This document shows positions 3,614 through 23,789 of a stretch of 38,907 nucleotides of DNA, in pieces. The stretch's first letter is position 1. The number at the start of each line of letters is the position of its first letter. Made by a program: the position numbers and the translations under genes. The notes below the pieces were generated by a model. It was not told the DNA's origin. It saw nothing but the letters and a program-made list of their open reading frames with translations, and made no database searches. The DNA comes from Gammaproteobacteria bacterium (GTDB taxonomy: Bacteria; Pseudomonadota; Gammaproteobacteria; GRL18). Location of the stretch: positions 103,915 to 142,821 of the forward strand of contig JADGEK010000001.1 of assembly GCA_016744395.1 (NCBI GenBank), given 5' to 3'.

Positions 3614-5608
3614 GTGAAGTTAAAATCGTATATTTTTCGCTGGGTGACGTTGGCAACACTATTGCCTGCAACGGCTTTGGGCTTGTTTGCCACGTATTAT
3701 GTGCAAAATCTTTATCATAAAGATGCCACTGAGGATATCCAACTGAGCCTGGACAGTATTTCTGTTGAAATTGCTCGCAACCTGAAAGAGGATCAGGGGC
3801 TCATCCATAAACTGCCAGACTCTTTGGCTATGAAACAATTTTTGCCTGTATTAGATGAAGCTCGTTTAAATGAACGGCACATTGATTATGATTCAAAAAT
3901 ATATATTTTAAGTCACTTTTTACAACAATATCAATCGGTTATTTCTTTGTTTGATACTATTAGAATCCTGGATGTACGGGGTAATACCTTGCTTAAAATA
4001 CGTGCAGGCCGTGAAAGCATTACTCGCTATGAAGGTTTTGAACCCTATGCGATTATGGATAAAGAGATTATTCGACCTGAGCAGCTTAAAATATTATCTG
4101 AATTATCTGATGACAGTGTCAGCATTATTGAGTTGCCACAAACCCGGGATGAAATGGGGCTGGACAATAATATTGTCATCCCCGATGCTGTGGTGCCGTT
4201 GAACTTTGAAGGTCGACGAGTGGGCTATTTGGCTGTTGCAATAAAAGGTGCCAATATAGATCAAGTACTTGAACTGGCCCCTCGCCTGTATCATGGAAAA
4301 CTTCTCATTGCAGAGATTGATGAGGAAAACCCAGCCAGGAATGGGCAGATTCTTTATGATGACAATACCTTTTTGCGTTTTGCTCATTTGAAGTCCACTG
4401 TGGAAAAGCTTCAAGGACTGGATAATGGTGTTCTGTGGAATGCGTATCAGGATCAGCCTTATGGTTCTGTGGCAAATACAAAAGGAGACAAGCACTATTA
4501 CTATATTGAATATTTCCCCTATCCTGATTCACTAACTTCATGGATGATTGTCAATGAAGTCCAGGATGCGGCATTCAGCCGGCCTTTTGAAAGCATCCGT
4601 AAGGGAATATGGGTGCTTGCATGCATTGCTGCGTTCAGTAGTTTATTTCTTGCTCACTTTGCCTCAAGAGCCATATCGACACCGATAACACATCTGGCGG
4701 AAAATTTAAAAACCTTTGCAGATGGTAAAAAAGCCATTGCCATTGAAAGTGATATTGATGAAATGAAAGAGTCCTCTGAATCATTTAACTATATGGCTGA
4801 AAAGCTTGAACAAGCTCAGTTTGAGCGAGTGAAAGCTGAAAATATGATGATTCAAAATGCAAAACTCGCCAGTCTGGGGCAAATGGCGGCAGGCATTGGA
4901 CATGAAATTAATAATCCGTTGAATAATATTCGTTCATTATCCCGTTTAATTCATCGGGATTTAGAAAGTAACATCAAGCAATTAAAAAGCAAAAAAACGA
5001 TGGCTGATCAATCACTGGAATCCATGTTAGAAGACATTCATTCTCTTGATGAAGAAGTGCTTAGAGCTTCTGAAATTGTAAAAGGTGTGTTGAGCTTTTC
5101 CAGACAAATACCAGATAAAGAATTTAAACCATTTTATCTGGCTAATTTATTAAAAAATCTTGAAGGTCTGGTAAAACAAGAAGCAAAACGCTCACAAGTC
5201 CAAATCATTGGCATTGATGAGGTTATCTCTCATAATGAAATTATGATTTTTGGTGATCAGGGAAAATTGCAGCAGGCTCTGGTGAATATTCTCCTAAATG
5301 CCATGCAGGCGAGTACGAGTGTGAAATATCAAAATATCATTGAACTGTCATTAGACATAGAACAATCAGACAATATAAAAAATGTGATTTTAAAAGTGAG
5401 GGATCATGGTTCAGGTATTGATGATACAATAATAGATCAAATCTTTGATCCCTTTTTCACGACAAAAGAAGTCGGCCAGGGCACGGGTCTTGGTTTATCC
5501 ATTTCATTGGGAATCGTGCAAAATCATAAAGGTCAGTTAAGTATTGAAAATGCCAGAAATGGAGGTGCTATTGTTAATATTGTCTTGCCTGTCTATAGCG
5601 GAGTATAG
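3614..5608 (+). CDS. Membrane sensor histidine kinase (HAMP, HisKA, HATPase)
   Basis: A 664-residue kinase. TM1 (about 12-31) and TM2 (about 331-349) flank a large periplasmic sensor of about 300 residues, Cache-like in size and layout. A HAMP domain follows (about 350-402), then the HisKA H-box LGQMAAGIGHEINNPLNNI with phospho-acceptor His430, and an ATPase domain with an N box (LVNILLNAMQAS), DHGSGI, FFTTKEVGQGTGLGLSIS. The GHEINNPL form of the H-box is typical of kinases partnered with NtrC-class regulators, and such a regulator is the next gene. The start is GTG 3614. An in-frame TAA lies six bases upstream, so no longer form exists, and the ribosome site is weak. What it senses is unknown; the soxYZ context suggests a sulfur compound or redox signal (inference). 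Confidence 0.92.
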   Translation: MKLKSYIFRWVTLATLLPATALGLFATYYVQNLYHKDATEDIQLSLDSISVEIARNLKEDQGLIHKLPDSLAMKQFLPVLDEARLNERHIDYDSKIYILSHFLQQYQSVISLFDTIRILDVRGNTLLKIRAGRESITRYEGFEPYAIMDKEIIRPEQLKILSELSDDSVSIIELPQTRDEMGLDNNIVIPDAVVPLNFEGRRVGYLAVAIKGANIDQVLELAPRLYHGKLLIAEIDEENPARNGQILYDDNTFLRFAHLKSTVEKLQGLDNGVLWNAYQDQPYGSVANTKGDKHYYYIEYFPYPDSLTSWMIVNEVQDAAFSRPFESIRKGIWVLACIAAFSSLFLAHFASRAISTPITHLAENLKTFADGKKAIAIESDIDEMKESSESFNYMAEKLEQAQFERVKAENMMIQNAKLASLGQMAAGIGHEINNPLNNIRSLSRLIHRDLESNIKQLKSKKTMADQSLESMLEDIHSLDEEVLRASEIVKGVLSFSRQIPDKEFKPFYLANLLKNLEGLVKQEAKRSQVQIIGIDEVISHNEIMIFGDQGKLQQALVNILLNAMQASTSVKYQNIIELSLDIEQSDNIKNVILKVRDHGSGIDDTIIDQIFDPFFTTKEVGQGTGLGLSISLGIVQNHKGQLSIENARNGGAIVNIVLPVYSGV

Positions 5609-5681
5609 ACTCATAACAATGTACCCTGTGAGTTCATCCAAAAGTTCAAAAAATGTATGACATTTGTCTAAAAAGAAGTCT

Positions 5682-7034
5682 ATGAAACAGCAATTAATTA
5701 TTATTGATGATGAGCCTAAAGCGGGCCGTCTAATGGCACGTTATCTTGATGACACCTATGAATGTCATGTTTTTATCGATCCTGTTGAAGCCATTGAATA
5801 TTTTGCAAAAGAAAGCGCCGATCTGGTGATCACTGATATGCAAATGCCTAATTTAACAGGTGCTCAAGTGCTTGCTCAAATCCGTGAAATGGACGGACAA
5901 ATTCCTGTCATTGTTATTACGGCCTATTCAAATGTGGATAATGCCATTGAAGTTTTACGTCTGGGAGCAACGGATTTTGTCAAAAAGCCGTTTGATATTG
6001 AAGAGTTAAAAATAACCATTGGAAAAGCACTGAATGTTTCTGTGCTTAAAGCTGAAAACTCTCGACTGAAAGAACGATTGAAAGCCCAGCAGGCCCAGGA
6101 TGAGCGGTATCGCCTGATTGGCACGGGCGGCAATATGCAGAAGGTGTATGACATTATCAATAAAATTGCGGATATTCGATGCAATGTGATCATTGAAGGT
6201 GAGTCAGGCACAGGTAAAGAGCTGGTGGCCAGAGCCATTCATTTTCAGAGTCAATCCTCAGAGAAACCTTTTATTGTCATTGATTGTGGAGCATTGACCG
6301 ATAGCTTATTGCAAAGTGAATTATTCGGTTATGAAAAAGGGGCCTTCACGGGTGCGAACAAACAAAAAAAAGGACTTTTAGAAACTGCATCAGGAGGCAC
6401 CCTATTTCTTGATGAGATCTGTAATATTTCAGATAATATGCAGACAAAATTATTACGTGTGGTTCAGGAACAGCAGATCATACGAGTTGGTGGGTTGGAA
6501 CCAATTGATATTGATGTGCGCTTTGTTGTAGCAACTAATCAGCCAATGGATAAAATGGTACAGGAAAGTAAATTCCGTCATGATTTGTACCACCGTTTAA
6601 ATGTGATTAATATTCAAGTGCCTCCTTTACGGACTCGTCTGGAAGACATTCCTTTATTAACGGATGTGATGGTTAAACGTTTTGCAGAAAAATACCAACG
6701 CACCATTACAGGATTTGATCAGGTTTCTTCAAAGCTATTGAGCAGTTATCAATGGCCAGGGAATGTTCGTGAGTTAAGTAATATTGTTGAACGAGCAGTG
6801 GCACTGTCTGATAATGAAATATTGCATCTGGATGAAATACCAACATCGGTTCAAGCGCCAGGACAAGACAATGGCAACCAGATTGATAATGATCAGCCGA
6901 CATTAGCCGAATTGGAAAAGCGCTATATTTTCAAGCTATTGGATGCGAATAATGATAATCGTGAAAAAACAGCTTCGATTCTTGGTGTCAATAAATCAAC
7001 ATTATGGCGTAAATTAAAGGAATACAGTGTATGA
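5682..7034 (+). CDS. NtrC-class sigma-54 response regulator
   Basis: A 450-residue three-domain regulator. The receiver has IIIDDEP, phospho-acceptor Asp52 in DLVITDMQMPN, and a Thr/Lys pair (VITAYS, KKP). The AAA+ domain has Walker A GESGTGKE, the sigma-54-contacting GAFTGA loop, and Walker B as LFLDEI, followed by CNI where GEL is usual. The C-terminal Fis-type helix-turn-helix ends in NKSTLWRKLKEYSV. I chose ATG 5682, preceded by AAGAAG, over an in-frame TTG at 5664, because the receiver begins at MKQQLIIIDDEP. It sits between two kinases and just upstream of a sigma-54 promoter for soxYZ, so it is the obvious candidate activator of soxYZ (inference from proximity and promoter class). Confidence 0.93.
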   Translation: MKQQLIIIDDEPKAGRLMARYLDDTYECHVFIDPVEAIEYFAKESADLVITDMQMPNLTGAQVLAQIREMDGQIPVIVITAYSNVDNAIEVLRLGATDFVKKPFDIEELKITIGKALNVSVLKAENSRLKERLKAQQAQDERYRLIGTGGNMQKVYDIINKIADIRCNVIIEGESGTGKELVARAIHFQSQSSEKPFIVIDCGALTDSLLQSELFGYEKGAFTGANKQKKGLLETASGGTLFLDEICNISDNMQTKLLRVVQEQQIIRVGGLEPIDIDVRFVVATNQPMDKMVQESKFRHDLYHRLNVINIQVPPLRTRLEDIPLLTDVMVKRFAEKYQRTITGFDQVSSKLLSSYQWPGNVRELSNIVERAVALSDNEILHLDEIPTSVQAPGQDNGNQIDNDQPTLAELEKRYIFKLLDANNDNREKTASILGVNKSTLWRKLKEYSV

Positions 7035-8538
7035 CACTGTACCAGTGATAATGTCGATACTTTATCCGTTTCATATAAATACCTCTCGTGTTGATGTGAT
7101 GACCAAAGAGCAAATGGACAATGCACGGCATCGTATTGCCAGTAACTTTGGTGTGCGTGCGGGGTTGTCTCCGATTGCTTACATTTTGTTACTCTTGAGT
7201 TTGATGGTTGCAACGGATGAAGGCTGGAACTATTTTCAAGAGTTTTGGTACTTGGAGCTGATTCTACTGATTTTGACTGTTGGCCGCATGCTGACAAAAA
7301 AGAAGCTTATCAATTCTAATCTTAATAATTACCCACTTTATTTAAGCACTTATTATGGACTGAGCTTGTGCGCAGGTTTTCTCTGGAGTGTGGCGATTTC
7401 TATGATGTTATGGGTGGATCAATTGCAAAGTTTTAGTTACTTAATGTTATCACTCAATACAGCAATATCTGGAGGTGCTATTGGTACGATGTCTTCTTAT
7501 CGTAGAACTGTGACTCAGTTTCTTATTGTGATGTGGATTCCTATGGTCTCTTGTTTGCTTATGCTGACATTTTCAAATGTTGAGGACGCTTCTTTGGTGT
7601 TGTTTATGGTCCTGTTGATGCTGATGTTTGTTATCGATCAAGCGAGACGTATTGCACTTGAAAATCAAACCAGTTTTTTACGTCAAATACAATTAGAAAC
7701 ACGTGGCAATGAGCTTAGCCTGGCACTAGAAACCATAGAAAAACAACAAGAAGAAGTCAAAAAACACCGTGATCATTTACAAGACTTAGTGGATGAAAAA
7801 ACCATTGATTTAATAGATGCAAAAGAAAAAGCAGAAAAAGCTGATAAATCAAAAAGTGAATTTTTGGCTAATATGTCTCATGAATTGAGAACACCATTAC
7901 ACTCCATTTTAAGCTTCAGTCACTTTGGCTTAACTCGTTTAGGGCAAGTGGATGAGGCAAAAATTCGAGACTATTTTGAAAAAATAAATTACTCAGGAGA
8001 AATTCAGCTCAGTTTAGTGAATGATTTATTGGATCTATCACGATTGGAATTTAAAAAAGAAACCCTGTTCTTTCAGGATTATAATTTAACCGAACTTGCA
8101 GAAAATCTGATTTCAGAACTGAGTAGTCTGTATGAAGAAAAAAAGATCAAAATAGTATTTAATGCACCCAGTGAAGCGGCCGTTGTGAATGGCGATGAAA
8201 ATAAACTTAAACAGCTCTTACGTAATCTACTTGGCAACGCGATAAAATTTTCACCAGAACATTCACAAATATTCATTCGTCTTTATAAAGATTGCAATAG
8301 TGTTCGATTGGAAGTTGAAGATCAGGGGCCTGGAGTGCCGGATGCTGATAAACAGTCCATTTTTGATAAGTTCAGTCAGTCCAGTCGTACACGAACAGGC
8401 GCTGGTGGCACAGGCTTAGGATTGGCTATTTGTACGCAAATAATGATGCATCATAAGGGGGATCTTTGGGTTGAGGATGCGCTTAATGATGACATCGTGA
8501 GTGGTGCCTTATTTGTCATTGTCTTTCCTCCATTATGA
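7027..8538 (+). CDS. Polytopic membrane sensor histidine kinase
   Basis: A 503-residue kinase. The N-terminal 200 residues are hydrophobic with about six helices (about 45-65, 70-87, 102-125, 135-155, 165-185, 187-203) and no large periplasmic loop. A coiled coil follows (about 215-265), then HisKA SEFLANMSHELRTPLHSIL with His285, and an HATPase domain (NLLGNAIKFSP, DQGPGV, GTGLGLAI). The GTG start at 7027 has AAGGA about 6 nt upstream and overlaps the regulator's 3' end by 8 bp, implying translational coupling. An ATG at 7099 is the alternative. The cassette thus has one regulator and two kinases of different topology, one with a periplasmic sensor and one possibly sensing the membrane or quinone state (inference). 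Confidence 0.9.
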   Translation: MYDTVPVIMSILYPFHINTSRVDVMTKEQMDNARHRIASNFGVRAGLSPIAYILLLLSLMVATDEGWNYFQEFWYLELILLILTVGRMLTKKKLINSNLNNYPLYLSTYYGLSLCAGFLWSVAISMMLWVDQLQSFSYLMLSLNTAISGGAIGTMSSYRRTVTQFLIVMWIPMVSCLLMLTFSNVEDASLVLFMVLLMLMFVIDQARRIALENQTSFLRQIQLETRGNELSLALETIEKQQEEVKKHRDHLQDLVDEKTIDLIDAKEKAEKADKSKSEFLANMSHELRTPLHSILSFSHFGLTRLGQVDEAKIRDYFEKINYSGEIQLSLVNDLLDLSRLEFKKETLFFQDYNLTELAENLISELSSLYEEKKIKIVFNAPSEAAVVNGDENKLKQLLRNLLGNAIKFSPEHSQIFIRLYKDCNSVRLEVEDQGPGVPDADKQSIFDKFSQSSRTRTGAGGTGLGLAICTQIMMHHKGDLWVEDALNDDIVSGALFVIVFPPL

Positions 8539-8559
8539 GTCTGCTTGATTTTCCTTAGC

Positions 8560-8603
8560 TTGAATAGGGCTATTCAAAAATGTAAATTGCAATTTGCATT
8601 TTT
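8560..8603. promoter_or_regulatory. Tandem inverted repeats, candidate enhancer upstream of soxY
   Basis: There are two adjacent inverted repeats. The first is TTGAATA/TATTCAA at 8560-8566 and 8571-8577 with a GGGC loop. The second is a 28-bp imperfect palindrome at 8576-8603 centred on AAATTGCAATTT, with a single mismatched pair. A further ATTTGCA lies at 8605-8611. The second palindrome is about 130 bp upstream of the predicted soxY transcription start, a typical distance for NtrC-type enhancer sites. It ends in TTTTT, so it could also end transcription of the kinase gene. The two roles are not exclusive. Confidence 0.5.
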
Positions 8604-8694
8604 GATTTGCAAACTGCCTTAATGATCTGAAAAAAAAATAGAAAAAACAATCTCTAAATAGCATATCTTATTGAATAGTATCATTTAATTGATA

Positions 8695-8711
8695 TTGGCA
8701 TAATCGGTGCA
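8695..8711 (+). promoter_or_regulatory. Sigma-54 promoter of soxYZ
   Basis: The sequence is TTGGCATaatcgGTGCA. The GG of the -24 element (8697-8698) and the GC of the -12 element (8709-8710) are 12 positions apart, as in the consensus TGGCAC-N5-TTGCA. Transcription should start near 8722, leaving a leader of about 46 nt before soxY. It lies in the 229-bp gap between the kinase/regulator cassette and soxY. The motif match is direct; sigma-54 use is inferred from it and from the neighbouring sigma-54 activator. Confidence 0.75.
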
Positions 8712-8767
8712 TTATAAGTAGCATCGTGTGACAAACACTATTAACAATCAAAACGACTAAGGAAGAT

Positions 8768-9232
8768 ATGATGCAACGTAGACATTTCCTGAAAAATACA
8801 ATGGCCACTGGTGCTGTTGCTTTAGCTGCGACAAGCGGCTTGTTAGTACCTGTTCAGGTCCTGGCATGGAACAAAAAAGCTTTTGACGCAAAAGATGTAC
8901 AAGGAGCCATGAAAGGTTCAATCGGTACAGAGCTGACTGAAGCAAGTGATAAAATCAATATTAAAGCACCTGATATTGCTGAAAATGGTGCAGTTGTCCC
9001 TGTAACCATCAGTTCAACATTGAGTGGCGTGACTTCAATTACCATTCTTTCAGAGAAAAATGGCACACCGTTGATTGCAAAGTTTAACCTTAAGGGTAAA
9101 GCAGAAGCATTTGTTGCAACTCGTATTAAAATGGGTAAGACATCTAATGTTATTGCAATTTGTGAGTCTGGCGGCAAATTCTATAGTGCTAGAAAAGAAG
9201 TTAAAGTCACTATCGGTGGTTGTGGCGGTTAA
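8768..9232 (+). CDS. soxY: Sulfur-carrier protein SoxY
   Basis: A 154-residue periplasmic protein that, with SoxZ, carries sulfur intermediates covalently on a C-terminal cysteine during thiosulfate oxidation. The N-terminus is a Tat signal (RRHFLKN followed by a hydrophobic run), so it is exported folded. The C-terminus is the diagnostic GGCGG with Cys152 as the carrier residue. The length is normal. The ATG at 8768 has GGAAG just upstream; the second ATG two codons in has equal claim. soxZ follows after 101 bp. No soxAX, soxB or soxCD lies in this window, so YZ form a separate unit here, as in many Dsr-containing sulfur oxidisers. Confidence 0.96.
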   Translation: MMQRRHFLKNTMATGAVALAATSGLLVPVQVLAWNKKAFDAKDVQGAMKGSIGTELTEASDKINIKAPDIAENGAVVPVTISSTLSGVTSITILSEKNGTPLIAKFNLKGKAEAFVATRIKMGKTSNVIAICESGGKFYSARKEVKVTIGGCGG

Positions 9233-9333
9233 TTTGTTAATGAATAGAACGTTCATAACAAATAATTGATAAGACACTTTTTTTGAATGAATTCAGATTT
9301 AAGTGCACAAAATAGACGAACAGGTAAATAAAA

Positions 9334-9648
9334 ATGGCAAAAAGCTCAATTAAAATACGCGCTAAAGCAAAAAATGGCGTAGTAACAGTAAAAGCACTGA
9401 TCAGTCATAAAATGGAAACTGGACTACGTAAAGATAAGAAAACGGGCAAGGTTATTCCCGCTCACTTTATTGAAGCAGTTGACTGTGAACAAAACGGTTC
9501 TGCTGTCATGAATGCAGAATGGGGTGTTGCAATCTCTAAAAATCCATACCTATCTTTCAAATTTGCCGGCGCTTCTGGTGATAAGGTTAAATTAACCTGG
9601 AAAGATAATAATGGTAAGAGTGACACATTGGAAACAAAAGTTAAGTAA
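9334..9648 (+). CDS. soxZ: Thiosulfate-oxidation protein SoxZ
   Basis: A 104-residue partner of SoxY. The two form the YZ heterodimer that presents the SoxY cysteine to the other Sox enzymes in the periplasm. The sequence has the SoxZ pattern: basic N-terminus (IKIRAKAKNGVVTVKALISHKMETGLRKD), the KTGKVIPAHFIE segment, and an all-beta C-terminal half (SFKFAGASGDKVKLTWKDNNG). It has no signal peptide, as expected, because SoxZ is exported bound to SoxY. It lies 101 bp after soxY and is followed by a strong terminator at 9805, so the unit ends here. Confidence 0.96.
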   Translation: MAKSSIKIRAKAKNGVVTVKALISHKMETGLRKDKKTGKVIPAHFIEAVDCEQNGSAVMNAEWGVAISKNPYLSFKFAGASGDKVKLTWKDNNGKSDTLETKVK

Positions 9649-21164: not shown

Positions 21165-21379
21165 CTCAACTGATAAAACCAGTGCTTAATGAAAGTCCTC
21201 AAAATAATGCCAACCAACATGTCATTTGTGGCGCTTTGGCAGTCTGGTTGTGACATATATGGCAGTTGTAGCTGGTTTATAATGAAACTTAAATTTGAAA
21301 CTTCCCATTGATGTAATAAATATCATTTAAAATCAATAGGATAATCTTGCATATTAGATTTTTATTAAATAATGATTTA

Positions 21380-21396
21380 TTGGCACAGTGGTTGCA
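21380..21396 (+). promoter_or_regulatory. Sigma-54 promoter for a small RNA
   Basis: TTGGCACagtggTTGCA is a perfect match to the -24/-12 consensus, including the 12-position GG-to-GC spacing. The predicted start is near 21408. No open reading frame with a ribosome site follows within the next 120 nt; a structured segment ending in a terminator follows instead. A sigma-54 activator gene lies 480 bp downstream on the opposite strand. Confidence 0.85.
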
Positions 21397-21407
21397 GTAG
21401 TTATAGT

Positions 21408-21520
21408 ACAAACAAAATAGAGTGAGTTGCAGACCACAATTTAAACTGTGGAAACAACTCCTCTTTTGTCGGTGTAAGCTCTTGTACGGTAAACGACCCT
21501 CCGTTTTACCGTACCTTTTT
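21408..21520 (+). ncRNA. Candidate sigma-54-dependent small RNA
   Basis: About 113 nt from the predicted sigma-54 start to a T run. Hairpin 1 (21424-21460) has an outer stem GAGTTG/CAACTC and an inner stem CCACA/TGTGG. A single-stranded linker CTCTTTTGTCGGTG follows. Hairpin 2 (21484-21514) has the stem GTACGGTAAA / TTTACCGTAC and a C-rich loop ACCCTCC, and is followed by TTTTT at 21516-21520, so it is an intrinsic terminator. CTCCT (21458-21462) and CCCTCC are complementary to ribosome-binding sites, as in many base-pairing RNAs. No start codon with a ribosome site gives a useful peptide. I do not recognise it as a known RNA family. Target unknown. Confidence 0.7.
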
Positions 21521-21557
21521 AATTTCCCCCTCCAATTTTATATTCCCTATATCAAAA

Positions 21558-21578
21558 TGACATGTCACTGTCATGTCA
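21558..21578. promoter_or_regulatory. TGACATGTCA palindrome cluster
   Basis: A perfect palindrome TGACATGTCA (21558-21567) followed after 3 nt by TCATGTCA. A related perfect palindrome TGTCATGACA lies at 23414-23423 between the activator gene and dsrA. Half-sites occur upstream of the sigma-54 promoter. These could be binding sites of the neighbouring Fis-type activator. This is inference from position and symmetry. Confidence 0.4.
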
Positions 21579-21879
21579 TAATTTTTCAGTCTATTTTTGT
21601 GTCATGACTTATTCTGTAATTTTCACCTTTACAAGAAATATAAAACAAAAATTCCATTATAAAACAATAGTTTAAATATATTTGTGGGATTGGCATAGAC
21701 AATGCTTTAGTATAAGTCAGGAACGGAATATGTCTGAGTTATAGCTCTTATTTTTTCGTTTTGTCGGTAACCTGAAGTTGGGCTTTTTGGGCTTAAATTC
21801 AGGATTTAACATTTTTATGTTGTCAGGATTGCTCAACCGCCCTTTTGATAAAGGCCTTTGGTTGGGCTTTTTTTTTGAC

Positions 21880-23331
21880 TTATTCTTCTTCCATTTTACT
21901 AATTCTTTGTAAATAGCGGTATAAGGTTCGTTCACTGATCCCTAACTCTTGTGCTGCAGATAAGCGGTGCCCATTATGACGCTCAAGTGTTTGTTGGACC
22001 GTTGCTAAATCAGGTTTACGAGGTTTTATAGAGTTTTGCTTATAAACGGGTAACCTTCTGTCCTCTTCTACTTGAGTGGGAAAGTAGGGGGGAATATCGG
22101 TTGGGAAGTCTCCGACATCAACGTCATCGAATTCATTGCTAAAAAGATGATGACTGTTCTTATCTATGGTGAGATGCTCTTCAGAAATGAACTCCCCTGC
22201 TGATAATATGACGGCACGCTCCATAATGTTACGTAACTCCCTGATATTACCAGGAAAGTCATATGATGAAAGGATCTCAATAATATCCGATGGCAGTGGT
22301 ATGTGCTGTGCACCATCTTCCAGCTTTTGTAAAAAATGTTCTGCAATGGCAGGTATATCAGCTTTACGTTCTCTTAAGGGTGGCACGTGTACGGGAAATG
22401 TGGCGAGGCGATAATAAAGATCCTGGCGGAATTTTCCTTCTTTAACCATTTTTTTAACATCCTGGTTGGTCGCAGCAATGATGCGGACATCAACATCAAA
22501 GTAATGGGTGCCACCAATCCGTCTGATGGTACTGCTTTCCAGAACACGCAGTAACTTGGTTTGTAAATCTAATGACAGTTCACCGATTTCATCAATAAAA
22601 AGAGTACTTCCATGAGCAGATTCAATCAGGCCAATCTTTTGTTTTAAAGCACCAGTAAAGGCCCCTTTTTCATACCCAAAGAGCTCACTCTCAATTAACG
22701 TTTCACCAATGGCACCACAGTCGACCACAATCATAGGCTTATTGTTTCGCTTAGAATAATGATGGATATAGTTTGCCACACAATCTTTGCCCACTCCGCT
22801 CTCACCCTCAATAAAGACGGTCGAAAGAGTGGGGGCGACACGGTGCAGGATATTGATCAGACGCAAGATTGCAGGGGTTCGACCCACCAAAAGTTGTGGA
22901 TCTTTTTCTTCTTGTGGAATGGTGACCATAGTCTCACCCATATAATGAATTTCACCTTCGTCATTATGAATTGGGCTGGCACTGATCTGAACCTGTTCTT
23001 CTTCTTCACCATGTTTGTGGATGTGTAGAACACTGGTGGATTTTCCTGTGCGCATGACTGTTTCTAATGGGCAATGCTCACCATGCTGGCTGCAGGGGGA
23101 ATCGTAATTATGAGATACCTCATAACAGAACTTGCCTTCAAGATTTTTTTGAGTTTGAAAGGAACTTCGATAAGCTTTGTTGGAAGCAACAATTTGATAG
23201 TGCCGATCAATAATGACGAAAGGTTCATTAAAGATATTGATGAGATCATCACAAGATGGTTTAGAAATATCATCGCTTTTTAATTGGATACATTCTGCTG
23301 ATGATAAATTGTTTGGAAATGAATTTTTCAT
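21880..23331 (-). CDS. PAS-AAA-Fis sigma-54-dependent activator
   Basis: A 483-residue transcription activator without a receiver domain. The N-terminal PAS domain (about 28-138) contains a Cys/His cluster: Cys69, Cys80 and Cys87 in FCYEVSH, SPCSQHG and EHCPLE. This could bind a metal or redox cofactor, or act as a thiol switch. The AAA+ domain has Walker A at 176-183 (GESGVGKD), GAFTGA at 223-228 and Walker B at 245-248 (FIDE). A Fis-type helix-turn-helix is at the C-terminus ([19 protein letters not shown]). It is convergent with the sigma-54-dependent small RNA and divergent from dsrA, so both are natural target candidates. Ribosome site weak; the ATG at 23331 is the best start. Confidence 0.92.
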
Positions 23332-23413: not shown

Positions 23414-23423
23414 TGTCATGACA
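23414..23423. promoter_or_regulatory. TGTCATGACA palindrome upstream of the activator gene
   Basis: A perfect 10-bp palindrome 83 bp upstream of the activator start codon, with a half-site ATGTCA 14 bp closer to the gene. It resembles the TGACATGTCA cluster at 21558. It would suit autoregulation by the activator, but no binding evidence is available from sequence alone. Confidence 0.4.
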
Positions 23424-23614
23424 GTTTTATTATAGAGACATTTATCAATAATGTATCAAATAAGCTCATTTATTTTTGATGGCACTTCAAAATAGATTAA
23501 ATTATTGTCTAAACAGACACTTGCCATGACCTAGTTGTGAAAAAGGTTTATGTGTAGAGAGGCACTCACTTTTATCTTTTTTGTACTGCTTTATATATAA
23601 GAAGAGTCATTTTA

Positions 23615-23658: not shown

Positions 23659-23789
23659 TAAATGACATATAAATCATTGTTTTATAACCATATTTTCTAC
23701 AAGGTTATTTATCTATGTTGGCACATAACTTCATACAATGAGGGTTTTCAAAGCAAGCCAGACGAATAAATAACGACAAGGAGGACATT

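Follow-up and report, generated by a model that had tools for sequence, protein, structure and literature searches.

Does a sigma-54 promoter with no gene behind it, situated close to the gene of a sigma-54 activator, drive a small RNA under the control of that activator, and if so, to what does the RNA belong? A first-pass annotation of the 38,907-nt stretch of DNA analysed here (the window), which comes from an uncultured gammaproteobacterium that oxidises sulfur, had proposed such an RNA, with two hairpins, downstream of the promoter that we call P1. P1 is the sole exact TGGCACN5TTGCW within the window. Four such sites, counting both strands, occur in a 1.05-Mb contig of a relative, so that about 0.15 would be expected in the window. 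As annotated, no gene follows the promoter: comparison across relatives revealed no conserved ORF at this unit or at the second one described below, and a coding small ORF was rejected on that ground. The positions of all features are collected in Table 1.

Table 1. Coordinates of features of the sigma-54 cassette in the window, and a candidate target of sRNA1
Feature	Position	Strand	Remarks
Probable activator half-sites upstream of P1, ATGTCAT (21219-21225) and TGACAT (21251-21256)	21219..21256	.
IHF-like site AATCAATAGGATA	21331..21343	+	8/9 defined positions; putative function
Sigma-54 promoter P1, TTGGCACagtggTTGCA	21380..21396	+	-24 6/6 and -12 4/4 bases invariant, six closest genomes
sRNA1: variable 5′ hairpin, fixed linker, terminator hairpin	21407..21520	+	Start predicted from promoter
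sRNA1 invariant single-stranded linker GUGUAAGCUCUU	21472..21483	+	Candidate pairing seed
sRNA1 terminator hairpin, C-rich loop ACCCUCC, U run	21484..21520	+	97.8% of cells paired
Putative activator sites upstream of P2, TGACATGTCAcTGTCATGTCA (21558-21578) and TGTCATGAC (21600-21608)	21558..21608	.	Assigned from sequence only
IHF-like site AAACAATAGTTTA	21662..21674	+	AATCAATAGGTTA (full match) in G012 and G017; putative function
Sigma-54 promoter P2, TTGGCATagacaATGCT	21690..21706	+	-24 5/5 and -12 4/4 bases invariant, six closest genomes
sRNA2: four stem-loops, the last a terminator	about 21717..21874	+	Start predicted; U run on to 21876
Orphan PAS-AAA-Fis sigma-54 activator, GAFTGA present	21880..23331	-	Cys 27, 69, 80 and 87 invariant in orthologues
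Activator gene promoter TATAAT (23434-23429), then site TGTCATGACA (23423-23414)	23414..23434	-	Same arrangement in 8/9 genomes inspected
AAGAGCTTACAC	upstream of STAS-sugar-transferase gene		Candidate sRNA1 target sequence

The predicted RNA, sRNA1, is about 114 nt long, with its start placed at 21407-21409; this start and that of sRNA2 are predictions from promoter spacing. The two-hairpin fold described in the annotation was recovered for 21408-21521 at -36.3 kcal/mol (z = -5.2, with no shuffled sequence equally stable), and the second hairpin (21484-21514) is followed directly by CTTTTT at 21515-21520. In the comparison of relatives, the promoter and terminator hairpin of sRNA1 proved conserved and the terminator stem covaries, with two pairs changed on both sides. 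The 5′ hairpin varies in sequence and length, and because a MAFFT alignment of so fast-changing a region is unreliable, its covariation was left uncounted and it was folded genome by genome. Of 15 genomes, 14 still have a predicted stem-loop there, and its z-score is modest in several of them; in G013 an unrelated near-perfect stem (z = -6.9) takes its place, and in G014 the hairpin is lost. The fixed parts of sRNA1 are the linker and the terminator loop. Of two elements thought able to pair with ribosome sites, the loop ACCCTCC is indeed conserved, while the supposedly exposed CTCCT is paired in stem 1 and varies among relatives.

P1 and the two-hairpin RNA are conserved in 14 related genomes, the promoter elements remaining invariant amid diverged flanks. 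Among the six closest genomes, only one of six spacer bases of P1 is invariant, against the full -24 and -12 elements, and 54 of 60 bases are invariant in the sRNA1 core, compared with 3 of 36 directly after it and 12 of 161 in far upstream DNA.

The annotation, borne out in its single sRNA, had overlooked a second sigma-54 RNA at the same locus as well as the wider regulon described below. At 21690-21706 the sequence reads TTGGCATAGACAATGCT (P2, with ATGC, not TTGC, as its -12 element), and downstream of it begins a predicted RNA, sRNA2, which is about 158 nt long, has four stem-loops and ends in nine consecutive T (21868-21876) that adjoin the stop codon of the oppositely oriented activator gene. 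Its covariation is strong: both sides have changed in 10 pairs, pairing holds in 95.9% of cells, and none of 500 shuffles scores as high; 115 of 154 bases are invariant in the six closest genomes. Elements of both promoters were found in 15 of 15 genomes, the GG and GC at -24/-12 being invariant and directly preceding the RNA in each case. Promoters and RNAs kept while flanks diverge are the pattern to be expected if both promoters and both RNAs are functional. For both units, then, we find a predicted non-coding RNA with conserved structure and an intrinsic terminator. We rejected sRNA2 as a homologue of sRNA1, since no similarity was seen and each model matches only its own RNA at the locus.

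The gene convergent with both units encodes, as first described, a PAS-AAA-Fis activator (PAS_4-AAA-HTH_8), comprising a Sigma54_activat AAA domain with GAFTGA and a Fis-type helix-turn-helix. The four cysteines listed in Table 1 are invariant in 13 orthologues, and the protein probably senses a redox, thiol or sulfur signal via its cysteine-rich PAS domain. It scored below the NCBIfam equivalog cut-off for every model shown, including LuxO, GlrR, NtrC, NifA and NorR. Candidate enhancer sites were identified upstream of both sRNA promoters, where TGTCAT/ATGACA half-sites are roughly 3 to 50 times commoner than in shuffled sequence: three upstream of P1 (0.33 expected) and seven upstream of P2 (0.31 expected). 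Half-sites recur upstream of P1 in relatives (in G013 as a single one, near the promoter), and those upstream of P2 are invariant at 17 of 21 bases in the six closest genomes. In the 4.87-Mb genome, TGACATGTCA occurs in two places only and TGWCATGWCA in 17. IHF-like sites lie between activator sites and promoter, with full matches in some genomes. Upstream of P2 in G012 (L031), eight activator sites stand head to tail in an 11-bp register, with TGACATGACAg repeated. The lone TGTCATGACA site just downstream of the conserved TATAAT of the activator gene suggests that the activator probably represses its own synthesis. The sigma factor gene rpoN is present in the genome itself and in 21 of the 24 family genomes, and hfq in 22 of the 24.

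The gene order P1-sRNA1, sites, P2-sRNA2 and convergent activator is common to 15 genomes in the extracted loci. sRNA1, sRNA2 and an activator orthologue (at least 67% identity) occur in the identical 15 of 24 family genomes, which are mostly MAGs, some of them incomplete; in the remaining nine all three are missing, and the best activator matches there are paralogues of roughly 40-52% identity. The neighbouring ZnuA-like and dsrA genes vary across genomes, and dsrA, said to adjoin the sRNA, has its start about 2.3 kb from it, on the far side of the activator gene. By this distribution, two unrelated predicted RNA families are tied to one activator through strict co-inheritance. The original proposal of a sigma-54-dependent sRNA under the neighbouring activator gains strong support from the conserved promoter, the clustered half-sites, the covariation and the exact co-occurrence. 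BLAST with the first unit gave matches in members of the genus and family and one outside (G092), which we rejected as it covers 26 bases of flank at a locus that shows no sRNA. In a sample of 369 genomes from the class, the sRNA2 model matched nothing beyond the family, and matches to an sRNA1 pattern in a collection of 84,980 species were confined to gammaproteobacterial MAGs. G011 carries two additional, weaker sRNA1-like copies (44.7 and 42.6 bits; L051 1979-2035 and L052 1960-2200), of which that in L052 resembles a decayed copy of the entire cassette and that in L051 has no recognisable sigma-54 promoter.

To our knowledge, the sigma-54-driven sRNAs that can be named are few: Qrr, GlmY/GlmZ and CrcZ/CrcY. 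Rfam gave no match at the gathering threshold and none at E values up to 5 for 21200-21900, which agrees with the annotation that no family is recognised and places the RNAs in none of those three groups. In Vibrio, the sigma-54 activator LuxO is encoded beside a Qrr sRNA that it drives. The arrangement proposed here is alike, except that our activator has a PAS and not a receiver domain and scores 262.9 against a LuxO cut-off of 800. GlmY of Escherichia coli is transcribed from a sigma-54 promoter under the activator GlrR/QseF (PMC7073468). Activator control of a sigma-54 sRNA would be shared, while the Rfam match and the link to the cell envelope are missing here and the activator scores 228.5 against a GlrR cut-off of 763. 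These two likenesses, drawn at first pass, hold; a third was overlooked. In Pseudomonas and Azotobacter, CrcZ and CrcY (CrcX) each have an RpoN-dependent promoter of their own, and a single enhancer-binding protein, CbrB, controls them (PMC8657755, PMC6292655), an arrangement that we propose for sRNA1 and sRNA2 and their activator too. CbrB, however, is a response regulator with a kinase, CbrA, and CrcZ/CrcY sequester Hfq-Crc, whereas the activator here is an orphan PAS protein and the two RNAs are mutually unrelated. On sequence comparison, the module would work like Qrr/LuxO, GlmY/GlrR and CrcZ-CrcY/CbrB, and it belongs to none of those RNA families. For sX13, a 115-nt sRNA of Xanthomonas, pairing of its C-rich loops with G-rich motifs close to the start of translation has been proposed (PMC3771888), and the C-rich loop of sRNA1 may be a pairing element of this kind; sX13 differs in having three such loops and acting independently of Hfq, where sRNA1 has one C-rich terminator loop and a fixed linker (sequence relation compared via Rfam only).

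The parallel with CrcZ/CrcY, two co-regulated sigma-54 RNAs under one activator in an organism with Hfq, raises the possibility that the RNAs titrate an RNA-binding protein, Hfq for instance, as decoys and do not act by base pairing. We regard this as unlikely, given that CrcZ is among the Rfam families not matched, that sRNA1 and sRNA2 share no repeated motif, and that what is fixed in sRNA1 is one loop and a unique linker of 12 nt, not a series of protein sites. It is more improbable still that P1 is a sigma-70 promoter, or an overlapping sigma-54/sigma-70 pair as documented for glmY (PMC7073468), with an sRNA not dedicated to the activator: TTGGCA-16-TATAGT does score 10/12, but across the 15 genomes the TATAGT hexamer is not conserved while the -24/-12 GG and GC are, half-sites lie upstream at activator distance, and the sRNA1 unit is missing wherever the activator is. 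Least credible of all is that the structures are mere terminators or leaders of the flanking genes, as the sRNA2 terminator next to the activator stop codon (which could act bidirectionally) and a ZnuA-like gene pointing towards sRNA1 in several genomes might suggest, because sRNA1 persists in several genomes without an adjacent ZnuA-like gene, the two RNAs each follow a conserved promoter of their own, and unpaired stretches such as the linker are conserved as well as the terminator stems.

The activator sites also allowed us to look for a wider regulon of the proposed sigma-54 module. Beyond the cassette, two of the 17 TGWCATGWCA positions combine with a sigma-54 promoter. The first operon so preceded encodes a napC-like tetraheme cytochrome, an ankyrin protein, a diheme cytochrome and a flavocytochrome-c sulfide dehydrogenase flavoprotein, with napD, napA and napB further along; the second encodes a diheme cytochrome and a DUF302 protein. 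Site and promoter precede the napC-like operon in 10 of the 11 activator-bearing genomes with a long enough upstream region (G011 keeps the promoter alone), and the second combination recurs in G000, G004, G008 and G015. Among genomes without the activator, the combination is absent from G001, G007 and G018, and G010 keeps just a promoter-like match. In G003 and G019 the napC-like gene still has its upstream site with no activator detected, which may reflect incomplete assemblies. Of the sigma-54-like promoters in the 1.05-Mb contig of G005, only P1, P2 and one more (815839, minus strand) are accompanied by such sites. In most genomes, the leader of the napC-like/sulfide-dehydrogenase operon includes a C-rich element, CUGCGUCCCCCCCUGCAG, that is conserved while the complementary stretches on either side of it change (L066 about 7690-7870, minus strand; L069-L082; G005:C35 near 815839, minus strand). 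The leader is retained in G005, with no napC-like gene found downstream. This leader is a possible third structured sigma-54 RNA.

A regulatory precedent in sulfur metabolism is TspS/TspR of Acidithiobacillus, a sigma-54 activator system of sulfur-oxidation genes with the palindromic site TGTCCCAAATGGGACA (PMC6335251). The use of sigma-54 and a palindromic site is similar; as far as the available part of that source goes, TspS/TspR differs as a two-component system acting on sox through its own site, with no sRNA mentioned. At 3614-9648 of the window, genes for a 664-aa protein and for another sigma-54 activator stand near soxY and soxZ, an arrangement that recalls TspS/TspR upstream of sox; this second activator shares about 40% identity with the PAS-AAA-Fis activator.

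Target prediction was run on the same G005 contig. Duplex energies against its 876 start regions gave no overall enrichment, and no sRNA target was backed by genome comparison. The suggested target dsrA ranked 71st with the loop and 459th with the linker, an ordinary complementarity on which we set it aside. A candidate sigma-54 promoter at dsrA was likewise rejected, as TGGCACATAACTTCAT at 23719 shows neither the GC of a -12 element nor conservation. Upstream of dsrA, 23660-23720 contains the strongly conserved AAATCATTGTTTTATAACCATATTTTCTACAAGGTTATT with an inverted repeat ATAACC/GGTTAT. In G005, the one genome examined for it, a STAS-sugar transferase gene of exopolysaccharide synthesis (L147 2020-3034; G005:C35:642020-643034) has, 31-42 nt before its predicted start, a 12-nt stretch that could pair at every position with the sRNA1 linker, with a duplex energy of -21.0 kcal/mol. 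This 12-mer is the only one of its kind in the 1.05 Mb besides sRNA1 itself, where about 0.12 would be expected per contig by chance and far fewer in start regions. We treat the gene as a lead only, a candidate target that might link the module to exopolysaccharide.

In all, we think it probable that the locus is a self-contained sigma-54 module, in which an orphan activator switches on sulfide and electron-transfer operons together with two trans-acting sRNAs. From the promoters, sites, RNA structures, co-occurrence and regulon footprint brought out by comparison, we infer the signal, transcription itself, the mode of action and the targets as follows. The activator, probably responding to a redox or sulfur signal, would bind TGTCATGACA-type sites and, with sigma-54 RNA polymerase and probably IHF, start sRNA1 from P1 and sRNA2 from P2. 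It would also start the napC-like cytochrome/flavocytochrome-c sulfide dehydrogenase and diheme cytochrome c/DUF302 operons, and probably limit its own synthesis through the site on its own promoter. sRNA1 most likely base-pairs in trans via its linker and the loop ACCCUCC, sRNA2 via its conserved unpaired stretches, and with the help of Hfq both would adjust other mRNAs when sulfide and electron-transfer genes are induced.

In our search of the open-access literature, no paper came up that connects a sigma-54 sRNA with the oxidation of sulfur. A bolder reading, which we hold only tentatively, is that structured RNAs are as prominent in this regulon as enzymes, the C-rich leader of the sulfide-dehydrogenase operon joining the two trans-acting sRNAs as a third RNA under an orphan redox- or sulfur-sensing activator; if true, this would amount to an RNA-based control layer of lithotrophic sulfur oxidation. 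The module is compact and testable, with a binding site that can be read from its own regulon. The joint inheritance of RNAs and activator points to sulfur metabolism having a new, RNA-based arm of control, and the module would show that in lithotrophic sulfur oxidisers post-transcriptional control is coupled to the induction of electron transfer from sulfide and nitrate genes.
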